A DNA stretch of 64,000 bases from Branchiostoma floridae (taxonomy: Eukaryota; Chordata; Leptocardii; Amphioxiformes; Branchiostomatidae): NCBI RefSeq assembly GCF_000003815.2, contig NC_049983.1, forward strand, positions 17,947,082 to 18,011,081, given 5' to 3'. Both the position numbers and the translations under genes were made by a program. Position 1 is the stretch's first letter; every line of letters begins with the position of its first letter. Of the stretch, positions 19,730 through 63,183 are shown piece by piece. Below the pieces are notes generated by a model that did no database searches, was not told where the DNA came from, and was given only the letters and a program-made list of their open reading frames with translations.

Positions 19730-22700
19730 ATGGCAGGAGCTGCAGAAGATTACAGCGAATATCTGGGCGCGAAAACAGCTCGGATAGCTTCAGCAGAGCA
19801 GGTGGAAAACTATACGGTAGGTGTGTCCGATTTTATTCAGATGTTGCCAAGTTCGTTGATGACCTGTTCAAAAATAAATATTCCGTGTAAACATTATAGA
19901 AATTGACAGACACACGTGTTCCTCGACCCTTTTATATACTTCCCCGATTAGTGTTTATACAACCCCACTTCCAAGATAAGATAAAAGTGTTATAATTAGG
20001 CTTTTTATTGTGCCTTTATTTTGAAGACTCCTTCAGATTTTGGATGGGCGTAGCCTGGCCTTGATGATAAAAGGTGTCTGTGCGAAGATCTGGCCAGATC
20101 TGGAATCAGAAAAAAAAAATGAGCAGAAGAAGTTGACACAATGATTTAGAGTTGTAAGCAGTGTGATCATATAACTTAAGTTATAATTTGAACCAGTGAA
20201 TGAATGAATGGTCTTTTGCAAAAGCATCATGTAAGGACTTAGCTGTAACCAAATACCATTTTTAAATGACAATCAGACTCTGATCTTTTCCTGCCATGTT
20301 ACTTGTGACAGGTTTATGTAATCGAAGTGACTGCAGGAACGAACACCTGGACAGTCAGACATCGCTACAGCGAATTCAGTGAACTCCATGAAAAGGTACT
20401 CCATTTTTTTTACTTTTAATTTGAGTAGATCAGGTGATCTCTGAAAGATAACTGCCAGCTCATACCTGTAGTATATATGTTCTTGTATCATTCATCTCTT
20501 TTAGAAGTCTTGAATGCTCACATTTTTTTAAAAGGCGATATTTTTCTGATGCATTTGCAATATCATGAAGACAATAACGACTCAAAATCAAATTCATATT
20601 TGGTAAACTGTTTTTCCCCAGCTCTTGTCGGAGAAGAAAGTAGACAAGAATGCACTTCCTCCCAAGAAACTGCTGGGAAACATGTCTAAGTCTTTTGTGG
20701 AGAAGAGACAGAAGGAACTGGAAGCTTATCTACAGATGCTGTTAGAAAAACACCAAGACTGCATCCCCAAAGTTCTCGAACGGTTTTTAGACTTCCATTT
20801 GTATGTAAGTGTCGCAGTTTTTTTCTATATGCACATAGTTTAAGATTTGTCGATTTTGTTAAAACTAAACTCAAAATATACAATGTTTCACTGAAGTAGG
20901 CAATTATTCATCTACCCATGATTTATTACTTCTGACAAGGTTGCTAGGTACAGCACAATTAGATTACCATCGGACATAATTAGATCTTACTAGAGAAACC
21001 TTTTAGATGATAGCAAAGATACAATTAGAGTCTAGACTCTGTTCTTTTTGATATTTGAAGCATTTTATTTAGCACTTTCAGCAGCACTAACTAACGTACA
21101 ATCTTAAAAAGTTAAATGCAGTGTGGGATCCATGGTTAAAAACTAATGAAGAAAGATATCTTGAAAACAACACAACTTAATCTCTACACATACAATATGA
21201 AGAAATTCTGAATTGTACAGTCTTTTAAGTTTCATAAAACATAACGTCAGCAAGTTTTCATGGCCTTCTATCCACTCAGTACCATAAATGGTTGTCAGAC
21301 GAGCTTGCACAGAAAGATAACTTAGATCAGGATATAAGATAAGTAGACTGCCACTAGAGATAAAAGTATTATAAGCCAGGAGACCACTGTAGAGTACAAG
21401 ATATGCTGTCATCAGAGATGGTCTTTTAATTTGAGAGTCCCTTTTAATTTGAATAGATTAAACACTTCATAGCTTTGCATAAGCAGGGCACAGGGCTGAC
21501 AAATTATACATTATACATGTACTCAAATAGTTATTGCTATAACCAGCTGTTGACTTGTGCTTGCATAGCGGATGTGGAAGAATTAGTGCCACATGGCAGT
21601 TATGTCAGCTAGCCAACATAAATCAAAGACAGGAATGTCCCAAAGGTAGAATACATGATTAATCCAGAGTAGAGAACTATCTGCACCTTCATACCCCTTA
21701 GGTTTATGTTGACAGATGCAGAATTCCTTCATAATCTCTTGCCTTTTACAAAATAAGAACCTGTGGAAGTGACTCAACAACTTTCACCTGGTTGTTCTCA
21801 TCTTTGTGGAACTGTGGTCCTTCTATTTCAGATTCTGACTCATCATCCTTCTCATAGTCATAAATAAAAACCTGTGCAGCTGCTCTAGTATCTTTAGCAC
21901 GAGCTAGCACCTGGCTGTTCTTATCTCTGCAGGGCTATGGCATGTCTTTTTCCATTGCAGGAAAAGACATGTAACCTGCCATTATAGACCTGCTTCAGCA
22001 TCGTTAGAAGCTGCAGTCATGTGGCTGTTTTCATTTTTGCAGGACTAAGGATCAGATTTCTTGGTTGTCGTAAAAGACAGGTAGTCATGGCCGTCGTAAT
22101 CCTCCACGATTACCCGTATATCTTCCTCAGCATCTTTAGCGGCTGCTGCCTTCACGTGGCTGTTTTCATAGTGAACATCGTCTTTTACAGCCTCGTATTC
22201 ATTCTCATATATGGGCTCCTGTGGGTTACAGCTATCAGCAGTGTGTGTAGCTGCTGACCCACACTGCTGATCACCCGGGAGACCCGGAATATTTCTAGGC
22301 GGAGGGGAGGGAGGGATAACCTCATAGTCATCTTCTTCTAACATGTCAAAAGCAGGGTTGTCTCTGTGGCCTCTGCCTGTATATGGTCTTTCATACTCCT
22401 CTTCTTCATCATGACTGTGGAGTACAACAGTGCCTCCTGTGTTTTTGTTTTTGAAAAATACTCTTGAGTATGAGCCGGAATGAGGAGTTTGGGACCTCTT
22501 CTTGAGCCAGATGGTAGGAACAATGGCAACAAGCAGGGCAGTGGCAAGGACTGCACCACAGACAGAGCCAATGAGAACAGGCAGGGAGAAGGTGTGAGAA
22601 GTAGGCTCCAGTTTCTTTGAAGGGGGTGGCAGAGTTGTATTTGTAGTATAACTTGTATTTGTGACAGCTGTGGGTACCACGTTCAGTTGGACATCTACAG

Positions 22701-25700
22701 ACAGCCTGGCAGATGAGGAGCCCACGTGACTTGTTGCAGTACAGACATACAGACCAGCATCTGCTGCAGTAACATTGGTTATGGTGATGGTACCATTCAT
22801 ATCCATAGTCACCCTCCCATCTGACTCAACAGTTGCATTCAGTCCAGATGGGAGAATGACTGTTATGTCTGGCGTAGGGATTCCTGAAGCTTCACAGATC
22901 AAGTGAAGAGTCTCTCCCTGTACTACTGTGTTATTGTCACTCCTCCCAAACCTCATGATCTTTGGCTCTGTACAGACACTTGTAAGGTCTTCAGGATTGA
23001 TGTCAACAAGATTTTGTCCATAAAAGTTGCTAGGTCCTTTGCACTTTATTTGGTTTTCAAATGCCCGAGACCCCATCATCTTTTGCCTGAAGGGAAGCAT
23101 CCTACAGTCACACTGCCAGGGGTTATTGTCAATGTATACAGTAGAGATAGAGGACAGCTTGTCGTAGGCTGTTGAGGATAGACTTTCTATTTGGTTGTTC
23201 TGAAGCTGAAGCTCAGATACTGTTGGAAATATCTCTGCTTTAAAGAGTGTCAGTCTATTCTGATAAAGTGTTAAGCTCTTGAGGTTTGATGTTGGACCAA
23301 AAGTTCCAGTCTGAATGTCGCTGATCTCATTATTGTCCAGGAAAAGCTTCTGCAAGTTGCCTAACCCTGTGAACATGCCAGGTCCGAGCCTTGTTAATCT
23401 GTTATGATACAGGTTCAGGCTCCTTAGGCTTGATGTTGGACCAAAAGTTCCAGCCTGAATGTCATTGATCTCATTATTGTCTAGGAAAAGCTTCTGCAAG
23501 TTTTCTAAACCTGTGAACATGCCGGGTCCAAGCCTTGTTAACTTGTTATGATCCAGGTTCAAGTTGCTTAGAGTTGATGTTGGAGTGAAAGTTCCAGCTT
23601 TAATGTTGCTGATCTCATTATTGTACAGGTACAGTTGCTCTAAGTTTTCTAACCCTTGGAAGATGGTAGAATTAAGGCTTGTTAACTTGTTATTATGGAG
23701 AGACAGGACTGTGAGTTGTGATGTTGGAGTGAAAGTTTGAGCCTGAATGTTGCTGATCTCATTATTGTACAGGTAAAGTTTCTCCAAGTTTCCTAACCCC
23801 ATAAACATGTCAGATCTGAGGTTTGTTAACTTGTTATGATGCAAACCCAAGGTTTTCAGGTGAGGTGTTGAATTAAAGGTTCCAGCCTGAATGTCGATGA
23901 TCTCATTATTGTATAAGTAAAGGGTCAGCAAGTTTTCCAGCCCCATAAACATATCAGACGTCAGATTTGTTAACTGGTTATGATGCAAACCCAAGGTTGT
24001 CAAGTTCCCCATCCCTGTAAACATGTCAGATCTGAGGTTTGTTAGGTTGTTATAATCCAGGCTCAATGTTGTCAGTTGAGTGGTTGGAGTAAAAGTTCCA
24101 GCCTGAATGTCGCTGATCTCATTATTGTACAGGAAAAGTTGCTTCAAATTTCCTAGCCCTGTGAACATGTCAGATCTGAGGTTTGTTAACTTGTTATGAT
24201 GTAAAGCCAAGGTTTTCAGTTGAGATGTCGCATTAAAAGTTCCAGCCTGAATGTTGCTGATTTCATTATCATCAAGGTAAAGTGTTTGCAGGTTTCCCAG
24301 TCCTGTAAACATGTCAGACAGGAGGTTTGTTAGGTCATTCCCTAAAAGATCCAAGAAGGTCAAACTTGACAGGTAGTAGAACGCTTGGCTATTGACAGTG
24401 GAAATGCTGTTGTTCCCTAGATCAAGAGTTGTCCAGCTCCTGTACTGGGAGAAGTCAGACTGATTTAGTGTTGTGATCAGGTTGTGCTGCAAGTTGGACC
24501 TAGTGATGTTTGTGGGGAGGTTCTGAGGAACGCTGGTCAGGCCCTGGTTGGTGCAGTCAGCAGTTAAACCAACCAGGTGGCAGGAAGCTTCTGTTGATCC
24601 ACACACCCGCAGGATGATGGGAAGGCATAACAGCAAACATGGCAGCTTTTCACCCATGATGCTCTTTGTGTCCTGCATGATACAAAAAGAAGGCAAAAAC
24701 TGTTACTCCAAGTACAGTTGTACTACATTATGAAATAAGTACTAGTAGCTCTCTTCTTTCTAGACAAGTAAAACAACGTCCAAGGCCCATCAATACTGAA
24801 AATGCATTTATTTTGGAGTTGAATGTGGTATCTCCATAACATTTAAAAATCATTAGTTGTGATGTTGAAATTCATACTAGGTGACATTAGAAACTATCAA
24901 ATCTAAAGCAAGTTTCTTCTGTTGATATATTGATTTAAACAAAAAATGGGCTGGTTGCAAAATGGGTTTACTGTTATGACGTCAAAGAATACAGCTGGAA
25001 CATGTCACGTAGCTGAGAGTGCCAAATGGGTCCAGCTTATCAACTCCCTGAGTAAGGTCCTTGGCACGTTGCCTCCAAAAACCTGATGGAATGCAGCAAA
25101 AACAGGTCAGGAGAAGGTAATCCACCACCTACACGTTTCCTTTGCATCAGGATTTCATTTCAGTTTGATAATGGTAAATCCACTTCAAATTTCTAGTGAT
25201 TCATGTCCTTATTATGTCGCAATACTTGAAACATGCCTTACATCTTATCTATCCATATATAAAATATTACCTTAGTTCATTCATTCCTTATCTTATCATG
25301 GCCCACAAATATACAGAAACAGCCACACAGAAACACCACCAAAGAATAGTGATACATACTAGTACTGTCATGTGTTTTCCCATTAGGTCTCCAATGTGTT
25401 TTTCAATTAACCTGGTCCCAGAAACGCATAGCCTTTGCATACAGACTTTCTTGTCTGCAAAATGTATTCTCAATTTTACCAGATACCAGATATCCTACAA
25501 AAGTACAACCTCCACTTCTCTAACAACTCTACCAAGAGCTATCTACCACTCCAAAAAAACATCACCTTCCATAGCATATGCAACATGCATGGTATCAGTA
25601 GGTTAGAAAGCTGCAAACAGGCCCATTTTCAAATCAACCTTGTTTCAAATACCCTGCCTGTGTACNNNNNNNNNNNNNNNNNNNNNNNNNNNNNNNNNNN

Positions 25701-50600: not shown

Positions 50601-53600
50601 TGTTGAGCACTGCCAAGTTGTGTGGCCATCAGCCAATTAGGCTTGGGAAAATTAATTTTTTGTTTCTGATTATGGTCGTGAAAAAAATGTCGGTCTTTAT
50701 TTAGGCATTCTTTTTTTATCCATTTTTATAGATTTCTGCTGAAATACAGTTTAACAAATTCAATGCAAATATGAAATGTATCATATTATAACTGCAGATA
50801 TACATGTACATTGTACAAGCACAAGTATATCAATAATTAGGACAGAGAAACACGGTGTTTAATTACACATTCGTACAGTTGTATAATATTAACTGTTTAA
50901 AGCCTTCATCTCTTAACAGATTGAGTGTGAAGTACAGGAAGTCTGTCAATTTCATCACTCAGATGTGAGATTGAAAATTTTATGTCCCTTGCCAGGGGTC
51001 GACTGCCCCCCAAAAGGCTAGGGTTGACAGGTTTCTGCAGGGCAGGTCGAGTAACAAGAAACACAACATTTTTTTCCAAGGCCTTTAATGCATTATTCCT
51101 TGGCTAAGGTAAACCATGACTCCAGCCCTCAAATATTTCATCTCAGAAAACAATGCAATGGCTGTTTTGATGTTGTAACAAGTTTACAGCTCTTAGAGCA
51201 CATGGTACGTAATCAGTCATTTCTTTGCCCCACATGTAGGCCAAAGTCCTGGCTCTGTACATGTTCTCATATTCATTGATTTTGATTTTGTTAAAACAAA
51301 TGAGCTCGAGACTTCTTATCAGTAACATGCTTTGAAAATCCAGGCATTTTAAGATTTGTCATGTTTTTACATAAATGTTTTAAATTTTATTGAGATTAGT
51401 ACTGATGAAAGTTTTTTTCTAGTGGTTGCAACATTCTTATGATACAAGTTTTTTTTCAAAAGTGTAAAAGTGTTACAGATTAACTGCCAATTAAAATTTC
51501 CCTTGACAATGTCACATGAATGCATAATGTGACAAAAGAGAAAATACCACTTGACCCCACATGTCTTTCTGCAACCATCTTTCATATTTTCTGCTTTAAA
51601 TTTGAATTAGTACCTTGCAAATTAACTGCCTGTACATGTATCTCAAATGACAATTGCGTAATAGCATGAAAATATTTTTACGTTAAAACAGCTTGAATTC
51701 TTTGAGACGCTCCCTTTACAAAATATTCTGCAGATTTTTCCATATCTTTGATGCATTAGCAACACTACTCTTTTACAACTGCTATACTGAATGAGTCAGT
51801 AGTTCACCATACCTCAGTGAACATTTGATAAAGGTAGTCACTTTGTATGCAGCACAGATAAAGACTTGCAGGATTGTGAAATGAATCTGAGAATAGAGGT
51901 TCAGCAAGGATGGCAGGGAGCAGTGTATTATATTAGTCTGGATATTGAATAGATGTTCAGCCAAGCATGACTGACAAGTTGCCATCTTACAGGGAACTTA
52001 AAGCTGATATTATATTGTACTTGTCACATAGAATACATATCAAAACAGTTTGTTAGCCATAGGTTTGGAGTGTTTCCTTGATTTGTTGCAAAGAACATTT
52101 TTCAGATTTAATGTAAATGCAATGCGATTTTGTGTAGGGATCTGTCTGCATGGAGAGAAGGTGGTCTGACTAGCCCATGCTTAATGGTGAACGTCTAAAA
52201 ACTACACACAAGCTGTTGTACAAAATGGTCTTTGTCAGAACAGACTTTGGCTAATGGCAATCCTTCTTATTTGATACATTTTTTCTTTGTTATTTTTCAC
52301 TTAGAAATGTATTTGGTGATACATGTGATAGCATTGTGAATTTTTTTACACGTTATTCTTTCTGGTCCCTGTAGCAAGTTACAAAAACAACCCATCGATA
52401 GGCAATGAGACAAACTACTGCATTTAAAATTGTCAAGTTGTGAGTTTAATTCACATTAAGTGTATTTGTCAAGTTGCAAGTTTATTTCACATTAAGTGCA
52501 TTTGTGTTGGAGTCCAAGGTATGTTAAGCTGGTTGTTGAACAGGTCATTGGCACACAGGCTAGACATGTCAATCATTAGTCCTATTTACAGCTGTCTACA
52601 GCACTTAGTACATCTAATCAATTAAAAACACATGAGTTTGCAGGGTGACTCATATAGCATGCATGAGTCTCTAAACATTCTGTAGATTACAGTATTAGTA
52701 CATTTTAGATGTATTTTGTGTTTGAATACATTGTGTTTAATACATTTATTTAGTAATGATGAACTTTAAGTGTCTATAGTAAATTGTCCAAAATTGCATT
52801 GCAGAGTAAAAGCAAGAAAGAAGGACATTATAACTTATATACATTTTTGTACACATATATCCATTCTAAAATTACCACACACACACCCGGCACAGACAAA
52901 ATGTTCCTCAATCATCTGAAAATAGCAAAAAATGAGTACATGACACTAAAATTCCACTAGAGACTGTGACCACAGAGCGGACACATATTTAATGAATTTC
53001 GTTTGGTGATCATTGTTATGTTTTCTTTGTTTTTCTCCCTTTTAAATCATTATTTTTCATCATGCATTTAAGCTTCATATCCAGAATTTTAAAACAAGAC
53101 TCACACAAGTTTGATTTTGGTCACTCAATTGTCACTCAGGAATAGCTGTATAGTGGAAAGTCACTTACTAGTACTGCTGCAGCAGTGTTTTATTGTCCAT
53201 CTCATTCCAGATCAGAAGTGCTCAAAAATGGTGACTGTATCTTCCTGTTCATCAGTCACCACGAGGTGGCCCTGTGTTGCCATGGCAACGGCACTGGGTC
53301 CACTACTGTCTGTAGTTATGGATTTGAGGAATTTGCCTGTTTTGTCAAATACTTGTAAGCACCCATTCCTACTATCAGCAACAATGATGTTACCTGAAAG
53401 GTCTGTACAGATGCCACGGGGATACTTCAGACGATGCCCACTGCTTGCACCATCTCCAAATTTGAACTGGAAGTTTCCGCTGTTGTCGTAGACATAGACA
53501 CAGTCGTGAAAGAAATCCGACACGAAAATGTTCCCCTCCCTGTCCACAGCCATGTACTGAGGGTGGTTCATGCCCTGTTGCTTACCCACCATTTTTACTA

Positions 53601-56560
53601 GAGTTCCGTCAGGCCTGAACTCAAGTACAACCCCTTGTTGTAGATACGTTCCAACTGTTTGTGTGACAAGGATACAATCTCTTGTCTTGTCCACTGCTAT
53701 CCCTCTGCAGGCTCTTGTCTTCTGTAGCTCTATCTTGGTCAGCATATTGCCCTGTGTGGTGTACTCAACTGCAAAGTCAGAACTATCTGTATCTCCCACC
53801 ACCCACAAGTTTCCATCTCCGTCTATGGCTACGTCATGTGGGGACATCACCTCATTGTATCTATGCCGTGTTCTTTGGCGGAGGAAACCCTTGGTTTTCC
53901 TGCCGTGGCCTGACAGGCTTGTAACCATGCTGTGCATGAATGTCCCCTGTAAATCGAAGACTTGGATTCTGTTGTTACCACAGTCTGCTACAAAGATATG
54001 TCCATCCTCTGACACAGCCACACCAAGAGGTCTTGTAAACTTGCCTTTCTTGACACCTTTCCCACCAAATGTTAGTCTCTTTGGCAGATTTGGACTCTGG
54101 ATTTCACTGTCACTGTTACCTATTGGTTCTTGCCTATGTGCTTCTTCAGTTAGTAATGCAGACTGCAGGGGCTGAATGGTAAGTTGCCCTAAAGTTTGGA
54201 CAACACTGCTTAAGTCTGCAGGTTGGAAGACAGCAACATCTGTTGGTAAGGGGGAAGGAGCTGCTCTATCTCTATGTTTCCCCACAACTTGGATAAGACC
54301 ATTGTCCTGCTCAAAAATCGCCATCCTTCCCTGCTGTATGTTGTTCTCTGCACTGTCACAGGCAGCGGACAGCTCGGATAAATCCGCCAAAATGCCATTC
54401 CGCTGACTCTGTATCGAGTCCAAGTTCTGGTTGTACTTTTTCTCGACCTTACTGAGCGTGTCATCTTTTGCCTCCCTGAGTTTCTGCATGCTCTGATTGT
54501 AGGCTTGAGTGATGTAATGTTCTGTCTGCTGCCTTTGTTCCTCTAACTGTTTCTCTGTGCCTCTCAAACTTATAACAAAGTCACAATAGGTCTCCAGTAC
54601 ACTCCTACCCTCAGCGATCAAACCCTGTTCTTCCATTATCCTTCCTTCCAGAGTTTTCTCCAAGTTTTCAGTCCTGTGGCCTTGGTGGACTTTTTCCAGA
54701 CATTTAATACAGATTGCTTTATGGCAATCCTTACAGTACAAATTCAGTTCTTCTTGTGGGTGATTGTTGCACCTGTGTGTTAAGTGTGGCTGCTCAGCAG
54801 TTTCTTCCATAACAGCTGCCTGCATGCGGATTTGTTCACACAGGTTTTCGACAAGTTTGTCGTCCGGTAGATCAGGTACCCCTTCAGTCGGCGGCCCTGC
54901 CCAAATGTGACAGACAGGGCATTTGAAACACTCTTGGCCCTCAGCCCAGTCCAGTAGACAGTCCTGACAGAAGGTGTGCTTACAAGGCAGCACTTTGGGC
55001 ATGTAGAACAGCTCCAGGCAGATGCGACAGCAAAGTTCTTCTCTGAGTTTCCCGCACAAATGTGACTTAACACCTTCAGCCATGATCTTAGCCTCCTCCT
55101 ACAGAAGTGCCGCTTGTTCAAGCTTAGGTCCAGGGTTGTATCAGAAAGGAGCGGACAAATCCATGGCTAGGTTATGGGTAGATACATTTTGTTTTTTATC
55201 TTTACATTTCAAATGCATGTAGATACTACTTATACAGAGACACAGTGACAAGTTTACTTTGCCTGCTCTGAGTTTGGAGGGTAAAAGCTGTACTACTTAT
55301 GCCAAAGGGCATGGTTGAACAAAATGGGTATAGAAAGTGGTTTAGTGATCTTTAACCAGTTGAAAGAACCTTCCATGGTCAAGATAGTTGGTATAACCCT
55401 GTGTAAAGCAATTAAACCGGTAGTTCACTTTGAATCAATTACCGGTTATCACAAGTCAATGTTTACTTACAGTTGAGAAGACAACATGACCTTTGTCAAT
55501 GTTTGTTTTAGTCAATGCCATCAATTAAAAGCATAAGACCAGTACAGTGGTAAGTCAACAAAGATTAGAAGAGGTATAATGGGTTTTGGTCCCAACATTC
55601 CTTGTTCCCATGCTGAGCACAAAAAGTGTACGTGTAACACAGTCAAGCATACCTGGTGGTCAGACAAACGTTTGAACTCGGATTGATTTATAGACCTACC
55701 TTTAATGCTGTACAGCCATGCAGACTTTCAAGCCCAGGTAAAAGTAGAATCTTATTAGTATAAATTAGTCTTTGATTACCCCACAGGGCGGCACAGCAAA
55801 ATATACATTTGGATGATGTCAGTAGAACTACAAAGAAAAAGTACAGGTGGTTAAGAACAGAATGGGGGGTCCTGTAAAAAAATTCCTCATGTAGCATAGA
55901 AACCAGCATAGCTCAACTTGACCTTTTAACCCTCTTCCTGCTAAGGTACATGTACATGTACATGTACATGTACCTGTTTAGGCCACACCAATTTTATTTG
56001 TTGCGTCTTGGGTTCTTCTTCTCTTCTTCAATTCCTTGGCAAGGCCTCTACTGTCGCAGTGCCTGTACAAGATGACCTACATGTAGCCTGGAACCAGATT
56101 GACACCCAGGGGTGGCAAGTGGTTTCTTCGGCAGCTCAATGCAGTCTGTCCACCAATCTAACTCATGGCTTTGGGGTGGTTTAGTCCAAGGGAGTTCTGC
56201 CAGGCTCCTGGCTCAGGGAAAGGGCACCAAAAACCCTCCTTTGGGCTTAACTCCCTAGAGCACTGATTTTAGATTGGCAGGTACACTGCCTTGGGCCACC
56301 AAAGAAACTGGCTGGCACCCAGGGTAAAGATGGCCTGGCAGCTGATTCCACTTTCTAATTCCCTGTTTCCACCTTGTTTGTCTTCTCTACAGACTGTAGA
56401 AGGACCTGTGCCTTATGTGACGTCAGACTTCTCACCGGATGGAGACATCTTTGGTGCCACTCCACTAAGGATCAGAAAGAATCTACAGAGGGAACGTCGC
56501 CAAACTGGGGGAACATCAGGAATGGGATTTGCCAGTCTCAACCAACAGGAACTTACTTAA
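41640..56560 (+). CDS. NOL9: NOL9/Grc3 polynucleotide 5'-hydroxyl kinase, 14 exons, 694 aa
   Basis: A nucleolar kinase that phosphorylates 5'-OH RNA ends during ITS2 removal in 28S/5.8S rRNA maturation, with the LAS1 nuclease. Exons: 41640-41716, 42126-42398, 42562-42616, 43184-43480, 44490-44661, 45241-45340, 45570-45701, 46084-46211, 46643-46794, 46973-47064, 47493-47715, 48140-48221, 48804-48937, 56393-56560. Frame closes at 2085 nt, near the roughly 700-aa human length. The N terminus is strongly basic (MDHAMVKKRKRRPRKSKAEQ), a likely nucleolar signal. Walker A is GGKNAGKS (305-312). The Clp1/Grc3 signature DIGQTEFTPSG starts at D335. VNTMGWTQGMGLHLLMDTI and the terminal VPYVTSDF are also family features. 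The last intron is 7.5 kb and contains a nested gene. Confidence 0.95.
41754..41820 (+). repeat. NOL9: G-rich 20-bp tandem repeat, G-quadruplex-prone
   Basis: Three perfect copies of TGGGAGGGGGGAGGGGGGGA-type units (41761-41820) follow a partial one, only about 40 bases past the exon 1 donor of NOL9. The sense strand is nearly pure G in runs of 3-7, so the nascent intron RNA could form G-quadruplexes. Confidence 0.9.
44730..44941. mobile_element. MITE in NOL9 intron 5
   Basis: The terminal inverted repeats are GGTGTAACAGCCCAGAATAT at the left and ATATTCTGGCCTGTTACACT at the right, about 26 bases with a few mismatches. Internal segments repeat the ATTCTGGCCTGGGGTATA motif. It is non-coding and about 210 bases long. 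Confidence 0.65.
48513..48645. mobile_element. Palindromic MITE, family 1, truncated copy C
   Basis: GTTTTTAAAACAAGGTATTT and AACTTGATATCCCTAAAAAC match the inner palindrome of the copies in DRC11 introns. Terminal repeats are lost or diverged. It lies in NOL9 intron 12. Confidence 0.55.
48866..49089 (+). repeat. NOL9: 112-bp tandem duplication across NOL9 exon 13 edge
   Basis: Two near-identical 112-base units (48866-48977 and 48978-49089) each hold the last 72 bases of exon 13, the GTAAGT donor and 40 bases of intron. The second copy lacks an acceptor and reading into it hits a stop (CCAGACTGA), so it should be inert except as a competing donor. Confidence 0.9.
53188..53193 (-). terminator. 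Poly(A) signal for TRIM-NHL gene
   Basis: AATAAA on the minus strand lies only 19 bases after the TRIM stop codon, implying a very short 3' UTR. Confidence 0.6.
53212..55083 (-). CDS. TRIM-NHL protein, intronless, nested in NOL9 intron
   Basis: A 623-aa RING E3-ligase-type protein. The RING spans about residues 18-62 (CCRICLELF, CKHTFCQDC, CPVC). A B-box 2 follows at about 103-146 (CNNHPQEELNLYCKDCHKAI). A coiled coil covers about 150-270, with no filamin domain. A C-terminal beta-propeller of NHL repeats covers about 345-620 (FTRPLGVAVSEDGHIFVADC, YPRGICTDLSGNIIVADSRN). It resembles the TRIM2/3/32/56/71 NHL class but has no filamin domain and is probably from a lineage-expanded set; exact orthology is not claimed. 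Single exon, antisense in NOL9 intron 13, so it may have arrived by retroposition. The start is the first Met before the RING. Confidence 0.9.
   Translation of the reverse strand: MAEGVKSHLCGKLREELCCRICLELFYMPKVLPCKHTFCQDCLLDWAEGQECFKCPVCHIWAGPPTEGVPDLPDDKLVENLCEQIRMQAAVMEETAEQPHLTHRCNNHPQEELNLYCKDCHKAICIKCLEKVHQGHRTENLEKTLEGRIMEEQGLIAEGRSVLETYCDFVISLRGTEKQLEEQRQQTEHYITQAYNQSMQKLREAKDDTLSKVEKKYNQNLDSIQSQRNGILADLSELSAACDSAENNIQQGRMAIFEQDNGLIQVVGKHRDRAAPSPLPTDVAVFQPADLSSVVQTLGQLTIQPLQSALLTEEAHRQEPIGNSDSEIQSPNLPKRLTFGGKGVKKGKFTRPLGVAVSEDGHIFVADCGNNRIQVFDLQGTFMHSMVTSLSGHGRKTKGFLRQRTRHRYNEVMSPHDVAIDGDGNLWVVGDTDSSDFAVEYTTQGNMLTKIELQKTRACRGIAVDKTRDCILVTQTVGTYLQQGVVLEFRPDGTLVKMVGKQQGMNHPQYMAVDREGNIFVSDFFHDCVYVYDNSGNFQFKFGDGASSGHRLKYPRGICTDLSGNIIVADSRNGCLQVFDKTGKFLKSITTDSSGPSAVAMATQGHLVVTDEQEDTVTIFEHF
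55945..55974. repeat. (ACATGT)n palindromic microsatellite
   Basis: GTACATGTACATGTACATGT and continuing repeats form a self-complementary simple repeat of about 30 bases in NOL9 intron 13, upstream of the TRIM gene. Confidence 0.85.
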
Positions 56561-60822: not shown

Positions 60823-63183
60823 TCTTGAAGCTGACCTACCAAAGACTTCCGAACCAGTCATGCCACTATCCAAGTTAGCCCAACTGTTCGTTAAGATTTC
60901 TGACAACCTGTCAAAGAAAGATGTCAGAAATCTACGTTCTTTAGTAGTTCATGAAGGGATTCTTGGCAAGGCAAGAGTTGAACGTGCGACACCTCTGGAA
61001 ATCTTCAACATGTTAGACGACAACAGGACGATAGGAGAGGGAAATCTGGAGTTCCTTGAGCAGCTTCTAAGGAGTTTTGGGAAGAAAAAGTTGGCAGATG
61101 AAGTCAAACTCCTTGAACAAGAGCAGAAAACAAAAGGTAAATGTTGATGGCACTTGATCATAATTCTCAATACTATGAATTCATTTTCGAGTTCATGGTT
61201 AGAACAGTCCTGTTGTAAACATACAAAGGAAACATACATACATTCAAGGTAGAGGGGTCACTTCAAAAACGGCCACCGTAAACACTTCAAGATGTACACG
61301 TACTGTTCTTACGCTTGTCATTAGAGATAGATGCTTTTGAATAAGACTTACTTTGAATGATATCATATAGTATCAAAATATCTAAATAAAAGCATACAAC
61401 ATTACTGTAAGGTAACATGCAATGTCACATTTATCCAAACAATAGGAAACAGCCAATCCGATGAAGCTGCCAAACCAACAGCAGCCTCCCCATCAACACA
61501 TTTACCAGCAGCCGCCGAATCAACTGGGTCCCCTCAAACAAAGGAGGCTATCCAATGCACAGGAACCACCCAATCAACAACGGCTAGTCAACCGTCAGGA
61601 ACAACCCAGTCATCAGGAACCTCCCAATCTACAACAACACCCATCCAATCGGCAACAACCGGTCAACTACCATCAGAAACCATTCAATTGAATAGAAAAA
61701 CTCAATCGCATGGAAATAGCAAAACGTCAGAAAACATCCAGTTCTTGAATTCAACAGCTGCAGGTGTGTTGATTGAAGTAGAAAAAAGTCGTTCAGAGTT
61801 ATGAGAGCAATAACCGCTTCTTATCAATGATTACCAATAGTCACTCTTTATTTTGGGTTAAAGATCAAATATTAAAACAGTCAACAGACATGTTGCAGTA
61901 CTGAAATACATATGACAGAGATGCCTATACGGATCCATCCATAGATATTTGTGGCTTTAAAATTTTCATATTTTTCAGATGACCAGGACACCCAAGTCAG
62001 CTTAAATCACCTACATATCGAACTGAACAGCCCCCACGTGAAACAAGACAAAGTGCGCCAGTTTGACCTGTACTGTCAGATAGGAGACCTCTACAGGACG
62101 AAAGTACACCTGTTACAGTCAGCTCTGAAGTACTACCAGAAGATGCTCGAGTGTTCGCAGGCACTGTCAGACGACACAAAACAAGCCGAGGCCTACAACA
62201 GAATAGGTTTGACATGCAACATCTTAGGGATGCACCAGAAAGCGTCTATAAACTACGACAGAGCTCTAAGCATCTTTAAGGCGACAGGAAAGCAAACTGA
62301 CACTTGCACAGCTTACAAGAACCTGGCATCATCTTTGGCAATGTCAGGCCAAGTAACAGACGCAAAACGTCATTATGAATCAGCCTTGGTTGCTGCAACA
62401 GAGACAGGAAACAAGACTGAACAGTTAGATATTAACTGTAAGCTAGGTGATCTACACAGGGAACATCTAGAGGAACCACAAGTCTCACACATGTATCACA
62501 CCGAGATGTTGGCACTAGCCAGGGACTTGGGGAGGAAGGACCAGGAGGGTCATGCTTACAACAGACTGGGTTTATCTTGTGAGGACATGCAGGACAACAA
62601 GTCAGCTCTAAAGTGGCATCGGAAAGGCCTAAAAATCAGTCAGGATGACGGAGACAAGAAAGCGCAGATAGCAGCACACACAAATGTGGGTAATACGTAC
62701 AGATTATTGGGTAAACAGGCCCAGGCAACATCCCACTTCGACACAGCCTTACAGATGGCACAGCAGACAGGAGATCAACATGGCCAGATGGACGTTTGCC
62801 TCAAGATGGGTGACATGCACAGGGAACAACTCCACGCCACACAAACAGCCATGCAGTATTATGAACAGTATCTTGCACTAGCCAGGCAGTTAATGGACAG
62901 GAATAATGAAGGACTGGCTTACAACAGGCTTGGACTGACGCATACTGACATGGGAGATTATGAGGCGGCTCTGAGGTGGTATGAAAGGGCTCTGAAGATG
63001 CAGCAAGACGATGCCGACCAGGAAGCGCAGATGGTACAGCATACAAACATGGGCGATACATACAGGTTACTGGGTCAACTGGACCATGCCAGATCTCACT
63101 ATCAGTCCGCGATGGCTATTGCCAAGGCCACAGACAACGAACAGGAAATAACGAACATTGCCAATGAGCTGACAAGCCTGTAA
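60823..63183 (+). CDS. DED-linker-TPR adaptor protein (5' incomplete)
   Basis: Exons 60823-61136, 61446-61763 and 61979-63183; junctions are GT/AG and phase 1 is kept through to TAA. Exon 1 encodes a death-effector domain (KLAQLFVKISDNLSKKDVRN, ATPLEIFNMLDDN, GNLEFLEQLLRSF), the module of FADD and caspase-8. Exon 2 is a 106-residue Ser/Thr/Gln-rich linker of TTQSTTASQPSGTTQSSGTS type. Exon 3 encodes nine TPRs of about 40 residues arranged as three 120-residue super-repeats. Each starts with a CKLGDLHRE-like motif, then AYNRLGL, then HTNVGNTYRLLG. The first exon is unresolved: TTCTTCTGGGTTACAG before 60823 looks like an acceptor, but ATG at 60858 (MPLSKLAQLF) could be the start. It probably links death-fold signalling to a protein scaffold; the function is inferred. 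Confidence 0.8.

Follow-up and report, generated by a model that had tools for sequence, protein, structure and literature searches.

Exon structure and coding potential

The window, by which we mean the whole 64,000-nucleotide stretch of Branchiostoma floridae DNA that was analysed, lies on contig C5 of the 513-Mb assembly. It carries three exons on the forward strand for a death effector domain (DED), a linker and an array of TPRs, and these features are listed below.

60823..61136, + strand: DED exon, with an acceptor before 60823, an ATG at 60860 and a donor after 61136 in phase 1 (from PF01335 and the splice borders)
60878..61120, + strand: death effector domain (46.9 bits in the genome-wide PF01335 search; six-helix model)
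61446..61763, + strand: Ser/Thr/Gln-rich linker exon, symmetric phase 1-1, with no Pfam domain at E ≤ 1
61979..63183, + strand: single TPR exon with TAA at its end (nine TPRs; TPR_12 132.8 bits; 121-residue period)
62059..62424, + strand: TPR block 1 (repeats 1-3), the most diverged, boundaries by eye
62425..62787, + strand: TPR block 2 (repeats 4-6), boundaries by eye
62788..63147, + strand: TPR block 3 (repeats 7-9), boundaries by eye
63148-63180, + strand: C-terminal remainder after TPR block 3

When the splice borders on the forward strand are followed, positions 60860-61136, 61446-61763 and 61979-63183 give one frame of 599 amino acids with a stop, and both joins have GT/AG borders in phase 1. 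The initial annotation had proposed that the three exons can be joined in one frame with matching phases, which agrees with this reading, and the junctions it named (61136/61446 and 61763/61979) are also the ones favoured by the sequence. The DED, linker and TPR exons thus read would share one transcript, and the locus looks like a real gene.

According to the Pfam scan, the three exons carry no catalytic domain, no death or caspase domain and no NTPase domain, where the TPR exon was judged by 25 of the 26 families with matches at E ≤ 1. Two TRADD-N-like queries found no tblastn match in the window at E ≤ 1, and together with the Pfam-blank linker this led us to reject a TRADD-N between the DED and the TPRs here.

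The dN/dS ratios were below 1 in each computed pair, as fits protein-coding exons. With the NG86 method, the window DED gave 0.16-0.26 against its relatives in all four pairs and TPR block 1 gave 0.22-0.37 in all 13, and YN00 gave 0.29-0.52 in 15 of the 17 DED and TPR pairs, with synonymous distances above 1 in several pairs. This supports a coding function and speaks for no particular role.

Two further frames were noted in the window, both on the reverse strand. A single frame of 628 amino acids with RING, B-box and NHL (TRIM-NHL type) occupies 53215-55098, some 6 kb away from the DED-TPR locus. The other, of 885 amino acids at 22048-24702, combines an Ig domain with numerous leucine-rich repeats and may encode an LRR-Ig protein of the cell surface.

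A DED with an altered RxDL site

The assignment of exon 1 to the DED family, as initially annotated, was confirmed by Pfam: positions 60860-61135 reach 47.7 bits with PF01335 (E 1.9e-12) at a cut-off of 35.9, and no other Pfam family matches exon 1 at E ≤ 1. The nearest solved relatives are caspase-8 (E 5.4e-5) and FADD (E 4.3e-4). A single-sequence AlphaFold2 model of the domain has six helices, with a mean pLDDT of 85.7 and a pTM of 0.73 for the best of five models and mean pLDDT values of 73-78 for the remaining four.

RxDL is a surface motif of vertebrate DEDs. In the window DED the site reads KKKL, and the motif is kept in none of the 29 DED subfamily rows with letters at the site, window included; one of the subfamily rows stops inside it. 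RQDL is kept in both C17 DED rows of the same alignment, which belong to the C17 array described below, and the DED of L047, a DED/TRADD-N/TPR locus outside the aligned rows, reads RHDY. Since the motif is absent, the partners of this DED may differ from the classical ones.

Repeat architecture of the TPR exon

The TPR exon scores 132.8 bits with TPR_12 (cut-off 30.1), and six separate stretches exceed the cut-off for TPR_12 and likewise for TPR_1. With boundaries placed by eye, nine TPRs of 42, 40 and 40, of 41, 40 and 40, and of 41, 40 and 39 residues can be delimited. The self-identity of the array is 0.33 at a lag of 121 and 0.28 at a lag of 242 residues, compared with a maximum of 0.164 at the best lag of 200 shuffles. 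Blocks 2 and 3 share 17, 22 and 17 identities in the repeat pairs 4/7, 5/8 and 6/9, and the second and third units are clearly block copies. For blocks 1 and 2, the identities amount to 11+11+11 in register and to 14+12+6 when shifted by one repeat, so the register is not the better fit. The view of the array as three copies of a 120-residue three-TPR unit therefore needs to be amended: the nine TPRs and the copied blocks 2 and 3 stand, but the period is 121 residues and block 1 is diverged.

No direct repeat of 30 or more bases was found in the TPR exon, which lets the blocks of the window copy look old, and a recent block duplication at the DNA level was rejected for this copy on the same ground. 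In three relatives the identity at lag 121 is higher than in the window (0.49 in L039, 0.43 in L041 and 0.45 in L043), and the open frames of the 18 TPR clusters described below range from 111 to 1292 amino acids, a few of them with internal stops. The stronger period and the frames of up to 1292 amino acids indicate that block duplication and variable length, both suggested at the outset for the TPR part, are real in the family.

The nearest solved structures are Pins (E 5.9e-32) and GPSM2/LGN (E 6.6e-29). LGN/Pins (GPSM) proteins carry C-terminal GoLoco motifs; none was present among the 25 of 26 Pfam families listed for the TPR exon at E ≤ 1, and the frame stops right after the TPRs.

Recurrence of the DED-TPR order in the genome

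A genome-wide TPR search returned at least 178 matches with 104 of 661 candidates scored, and its counts are lower bounds. The strongest matches (63 of the 178 rows, E ≤ 1.5e-25) fall into 18 clusters, and the 15 kb upstream of each cluster were inspected for DEDs (20 rows on C5, C8 and C19, two of them at one place) and for TRADD-N-like exons (11 of 43 rows, comprising the C19 rows and a single C13 row). At four of the 18 clusters, on C5, C8 and C19, a related DED lies 0.8-2.1 kb upstream on the same strand and no TRADD-N-like match was found; these are the window, C8:24.297, C8:24.259 and C19:7.927 Mb. At C19:8.181 a DED within 3 kb is followed by a TRADD-N-like exon and then by the TPRs, at C19:13.682 the TRADD-N-like exon lies at 2 kb and the DED, at 12 kb, is broken in frame, and C19:9.932 has a DED alone, 9 kb off, with a linker that resembles the kind in TRADD-N-like loci. 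Seven clusters lack a DED match and show a TRADD-N-like exon at a distance of 1.8-7.9 kb, which brings the clusters with such an exon upstream to nine overall, and four have neither. A run of N lies just upstream of C8:24.315 (L057), and the missing upstream match there consequently says little.

We use the wording "TRADD-N-like" because three of the four scanned exons remain below the Pfam cut-off of 23.7 (16.4 to 17.4 bits) and the exon of L050 has no TRADD match; the label also rests on the place of these exons and on the published description. Upstream of the TRADD-N-like exon at C19:13.703, a complete GT4-conflict glycosyltransferase exon (PF20706, 245.7 bits) was found, and a GT4 tail fragment upstream of that at C19:5.597. 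The window gene contains the same TPR cassette as the TRADD-N-like loci, with borders that read by eye as phase 1. The DED-TPR gene is not a lone oddity but belongs to a small group of related loci in which death-signalling modules seem to be combined with sensor-like repeats, as the TPR cassette also follows TRADD-N-like exons, a DED with a TRADD-N-like exon, and GT4 with a TRADD-N-like exon. A chance join of unrelated exons was rejected, since the DED-then-TPR order is repeated at three other loci and the phases fit where checked. In the TPR tree, two of the 11 inner branches are starred, and the window row is placed nowhere with support.

The four DED-TPR loci are not uniform, given the short TPR-like exon with a hydrophobic start at L040 (C8:24255600-24261100, - strand). 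Here the DED exon is followed by a TPR frame that opens with a strongly hydrophobic, transmembrane-like stretch, and a second frame with a hydrophobic start occurs farther along. Judged by eye, L040 is possibly a membrane-anchored DED-TPR variant.

Variation was also observed in and beside linkers elsewhere. The linker exon of L052 (C19:5515300-5518900) contains a long run of PPDDTDV-type heptads at 883-1446, which is a tandem-repeat expansion. At L048 (C19:13684800-13686400, - strand), the interval that separates the linker from the TRADD-N-like exon holds a long low-complexity tandem stretch, which is rich in Cys, His and Pro in one frame.

Apparent modularity of the DED and TPR exons

The Pfam DED search of the genome yielded at least 150 matches (150 of 172 candidates scored), 138 of them over the cut-off, and at least 65 matches were obtained with the window DED as query (143 candidates). 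Among the matches listed, the largest cluster is a dense array of DED exons at C17:18.28-18.90 Mb (L003, L005-L008). Within this array, the exon downstream of the DED at L005 scores 38.7 bits for NCOA6_TRADD-N, in line with the amphioxus expansion published in PMC8195603. For the midpoint-rooted DED tree, 39 loci were entered and 32 rows kept by match length, with L047 among those dropped. The split between two C17 rows and the other 30 is fully supported; seven of the 29 inner branches are starred and 13 open, and TPR-type and NHL-type rows are intermixed.

With regards to the partner modules, NHL repeats (rows at E ≤ 1e-30) follow a related DED within 8 kb downstream at ten of the 12 C15 loci. 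At L042, which is of the NHL type, filamin is matched weakly, under the cut-off, in the exon preceding the NHL exon. TRADD-N-like matches lie near the DED at C15:19.643 and C15:19.621 (compare L022 and L026), and the NHL-type loci are thus not all free of TRADD-N. A NACHT domain (95.8 bits) was detected downstream of a DED of the window subfamily at L023 and a partial GBP domain (23.6 bits, cut-off 21.1) downstream of a related DED at L034; a look-alike open reading frame at L021 had no Pfam match. At these loci the DEDs and the NHL, NACHT or GBP-like modules lie in order on one strand, and they would share a transcript. At L030 (C19:13695858-13696028, - strand), the two halves of a DED exon of the same subfamily are in different frames, and this is likely a broken copy.

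The splice phases were read by eye for DED donors at five loci and for TPR acceptors at four. The donor is in phase 1 throughout (window, L039, L040, L041 and L042); the acceptor is in phase 1 in the window, L039 and L043, with L041 allowing such a reading. The readable borders of the TRADD-N-like, second-type linker and TPR exons are consistent with phase 1 as well.

With somewhat more doubt than belief, we propose a two-way system of exon cassettes in cephalochordates. One DED plug would be combined with TPR, filamin-NHL, NACHT or GBP-like sensors, and one TPR sensor with DED, DED+TRADD-N or GT4+TRADD-N heads, all through phase-1 introns, and duplication of the 121-residue three-TPR block would yield a receptor-like repertoire of TPR recognition arrays. 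Interchangeable phase-1 cassettes would offer a simple route for module swaps. In PMC8195603, retrotransposition was proposed for part of this diversity, and the present sequence data appear compatible with either process.

Functional interpretation

On balance, and in keeping with the invertebrate adaptor suggested by the initial annotation, we lean towards a locus that encodes a DED-TPR adaptor, probably cytosolic, with an innate-immune or cell-death role. In sequence the nine TPRs are nearest to LGN/Pins, and their superhelix would hold a peptide or protein ligand in its concave groove, which could be a host partner or one linked to a microbe or to damage. As the proteins cluster on this ligand, the flexibility of the Ser/Thr/Gln linker might allow their N-terminal DEDs to come together, and the assembled DEDs could recruit further DED proteins, such as caspase-8-like proteases and FADD-like or DED-NACHT proteins, which would start a death or inflammatory response. 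The cytosolic site, the ligand binding, the DED partners and the immune role are all features that we infer. The adaptor is suggested by the DED over the cut-off, by the DED-then-TPR order at four of the 18 clusters and by DED relatives beside sensor-type modules. The TPR cassette that recurs after TRADD-N-like exons, once with a complete exon of the GT4-conflict family (PF20706), which is named for conflict systems, points in the same direction. The loss of RxDL, the unsupported placement in the TPR tree, the kinship with LGN/Pins and the non-uniform DED-TPR loci count against it.

A protein with a DED and no caspase could also act as a decoy or brake, which caps or sequesters DED filaments in the manner of c-FLIP and uses the TPRs merely for localisation. 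The three exons hold no catalytic domain, and the missing RxDL motif might suit a chain-ending DED. However, the motif is equally lost in relatives beside NACHT or NHL, and since these resemble sensors more than decoys, we consider this role unlikely. LGN/Pins act in spindle orientation, not immunity. With Pins and GPSM2/LGN as the nearest solved TPRs, a non-immune scaffold for polarity, spindle or trafficking comes into view, in which the DED would serve solely for self-association. Such a scaffold is decidedly unlikely in our judgement, as the 25 of 26 families listed include no GoLoco, the frame ends directly after the TPRs, and relatives adjoin GT4-conflict, TRADD-N-like, NACHT and GBP modules.

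Finally, the DED and the TPRs might belong to two separate genes or gene fragments that lie side by side and have been joined by eye. The joins are read from genomic sequence, and the frame-split DED of L030 at C19:13.69 Mb illustrates that fragments occur in the family. However, merely 846 bp separate the DED match from the TPR match, the phases fit, the earliest ATG of the TPR frame sits within repeat 1, and the DED-then-TPR order is found again at three further loci, all of which makes two separate genes very improbable. The significance of the locus lies in the indication that, at several places in the genome, a DED is linked straight to TPRs and lacks the TRADD-N typical of the described set. 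It also suggests a way in which new death-domain receptors could be assembled, through phase-1 exon swaps that combine a DED head with repeat-type sensors. Should the DED-TPR genes prove to be expressed and inducible, they would show directly whether TPR arrays act in recognition within the innate immunity of animals.

Comparison with previous work

Expansions of DED/TRADD-N proteins with variable C-termini, TPRs among them, are described for Branchiostoma in PMC8195603, where DEDD2-clade TRADD-N proteins carry TTC28-like TPRs. Amphioxus DED expansions are in print, with a figure of 57 for a Branchiostoma species, and PMC12373286 lists death and death effector domains as those with the highest enrichment among the dispensable genes of B. 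floridae. A caution on B. floridae gene models is given in PMC3499355. Among the titles, abstracts and passages covered, no paper that names a direct DED-TPR protein was found, and an earlier listing in supplements is possible. The general theme is thus already in print in PMC8195603, and the form not found there or in the other texts covered is DED-TPR without TRADD-N.

Among the closest known systems, LGN/Pins represent the nearest solved TPR array and have TPRs of about 40 residues like the window gene, which differs in the DED in front, the 121-residue three-TPR blocks and the absence of a visible GoLoco. The DEDs of FADD and caspase-8 belong to a common sequence family with the window DED, for which the model shows six helices; in contrast to these proteins, the window gene lacks a death domain, a caspase and RxDL. 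As for the amphioxus DED-NACHT receptors described in PMC2575513, a DED of the same subfamily precedes the NACHT exon at L023, whereas the DED-TPR gene has TPRs in the place of the sensor and no NTPase was found in it. A likeness in overall design is shared with the DEDD2- and NCOA6-clade TRADD-N proteins, for which PMC8195603 reports lineage-specific expansion, a constant N-terminal DED, variable C-terminal repeats including TTC28-like TPRs, and GT4 glycosyltransferases in the same clade. Unlike these proteins, the DED-TPR gene has no TRADD-N that could be found, and the Ser/Thr/Gln linker alone joins its DED to the TPRs.
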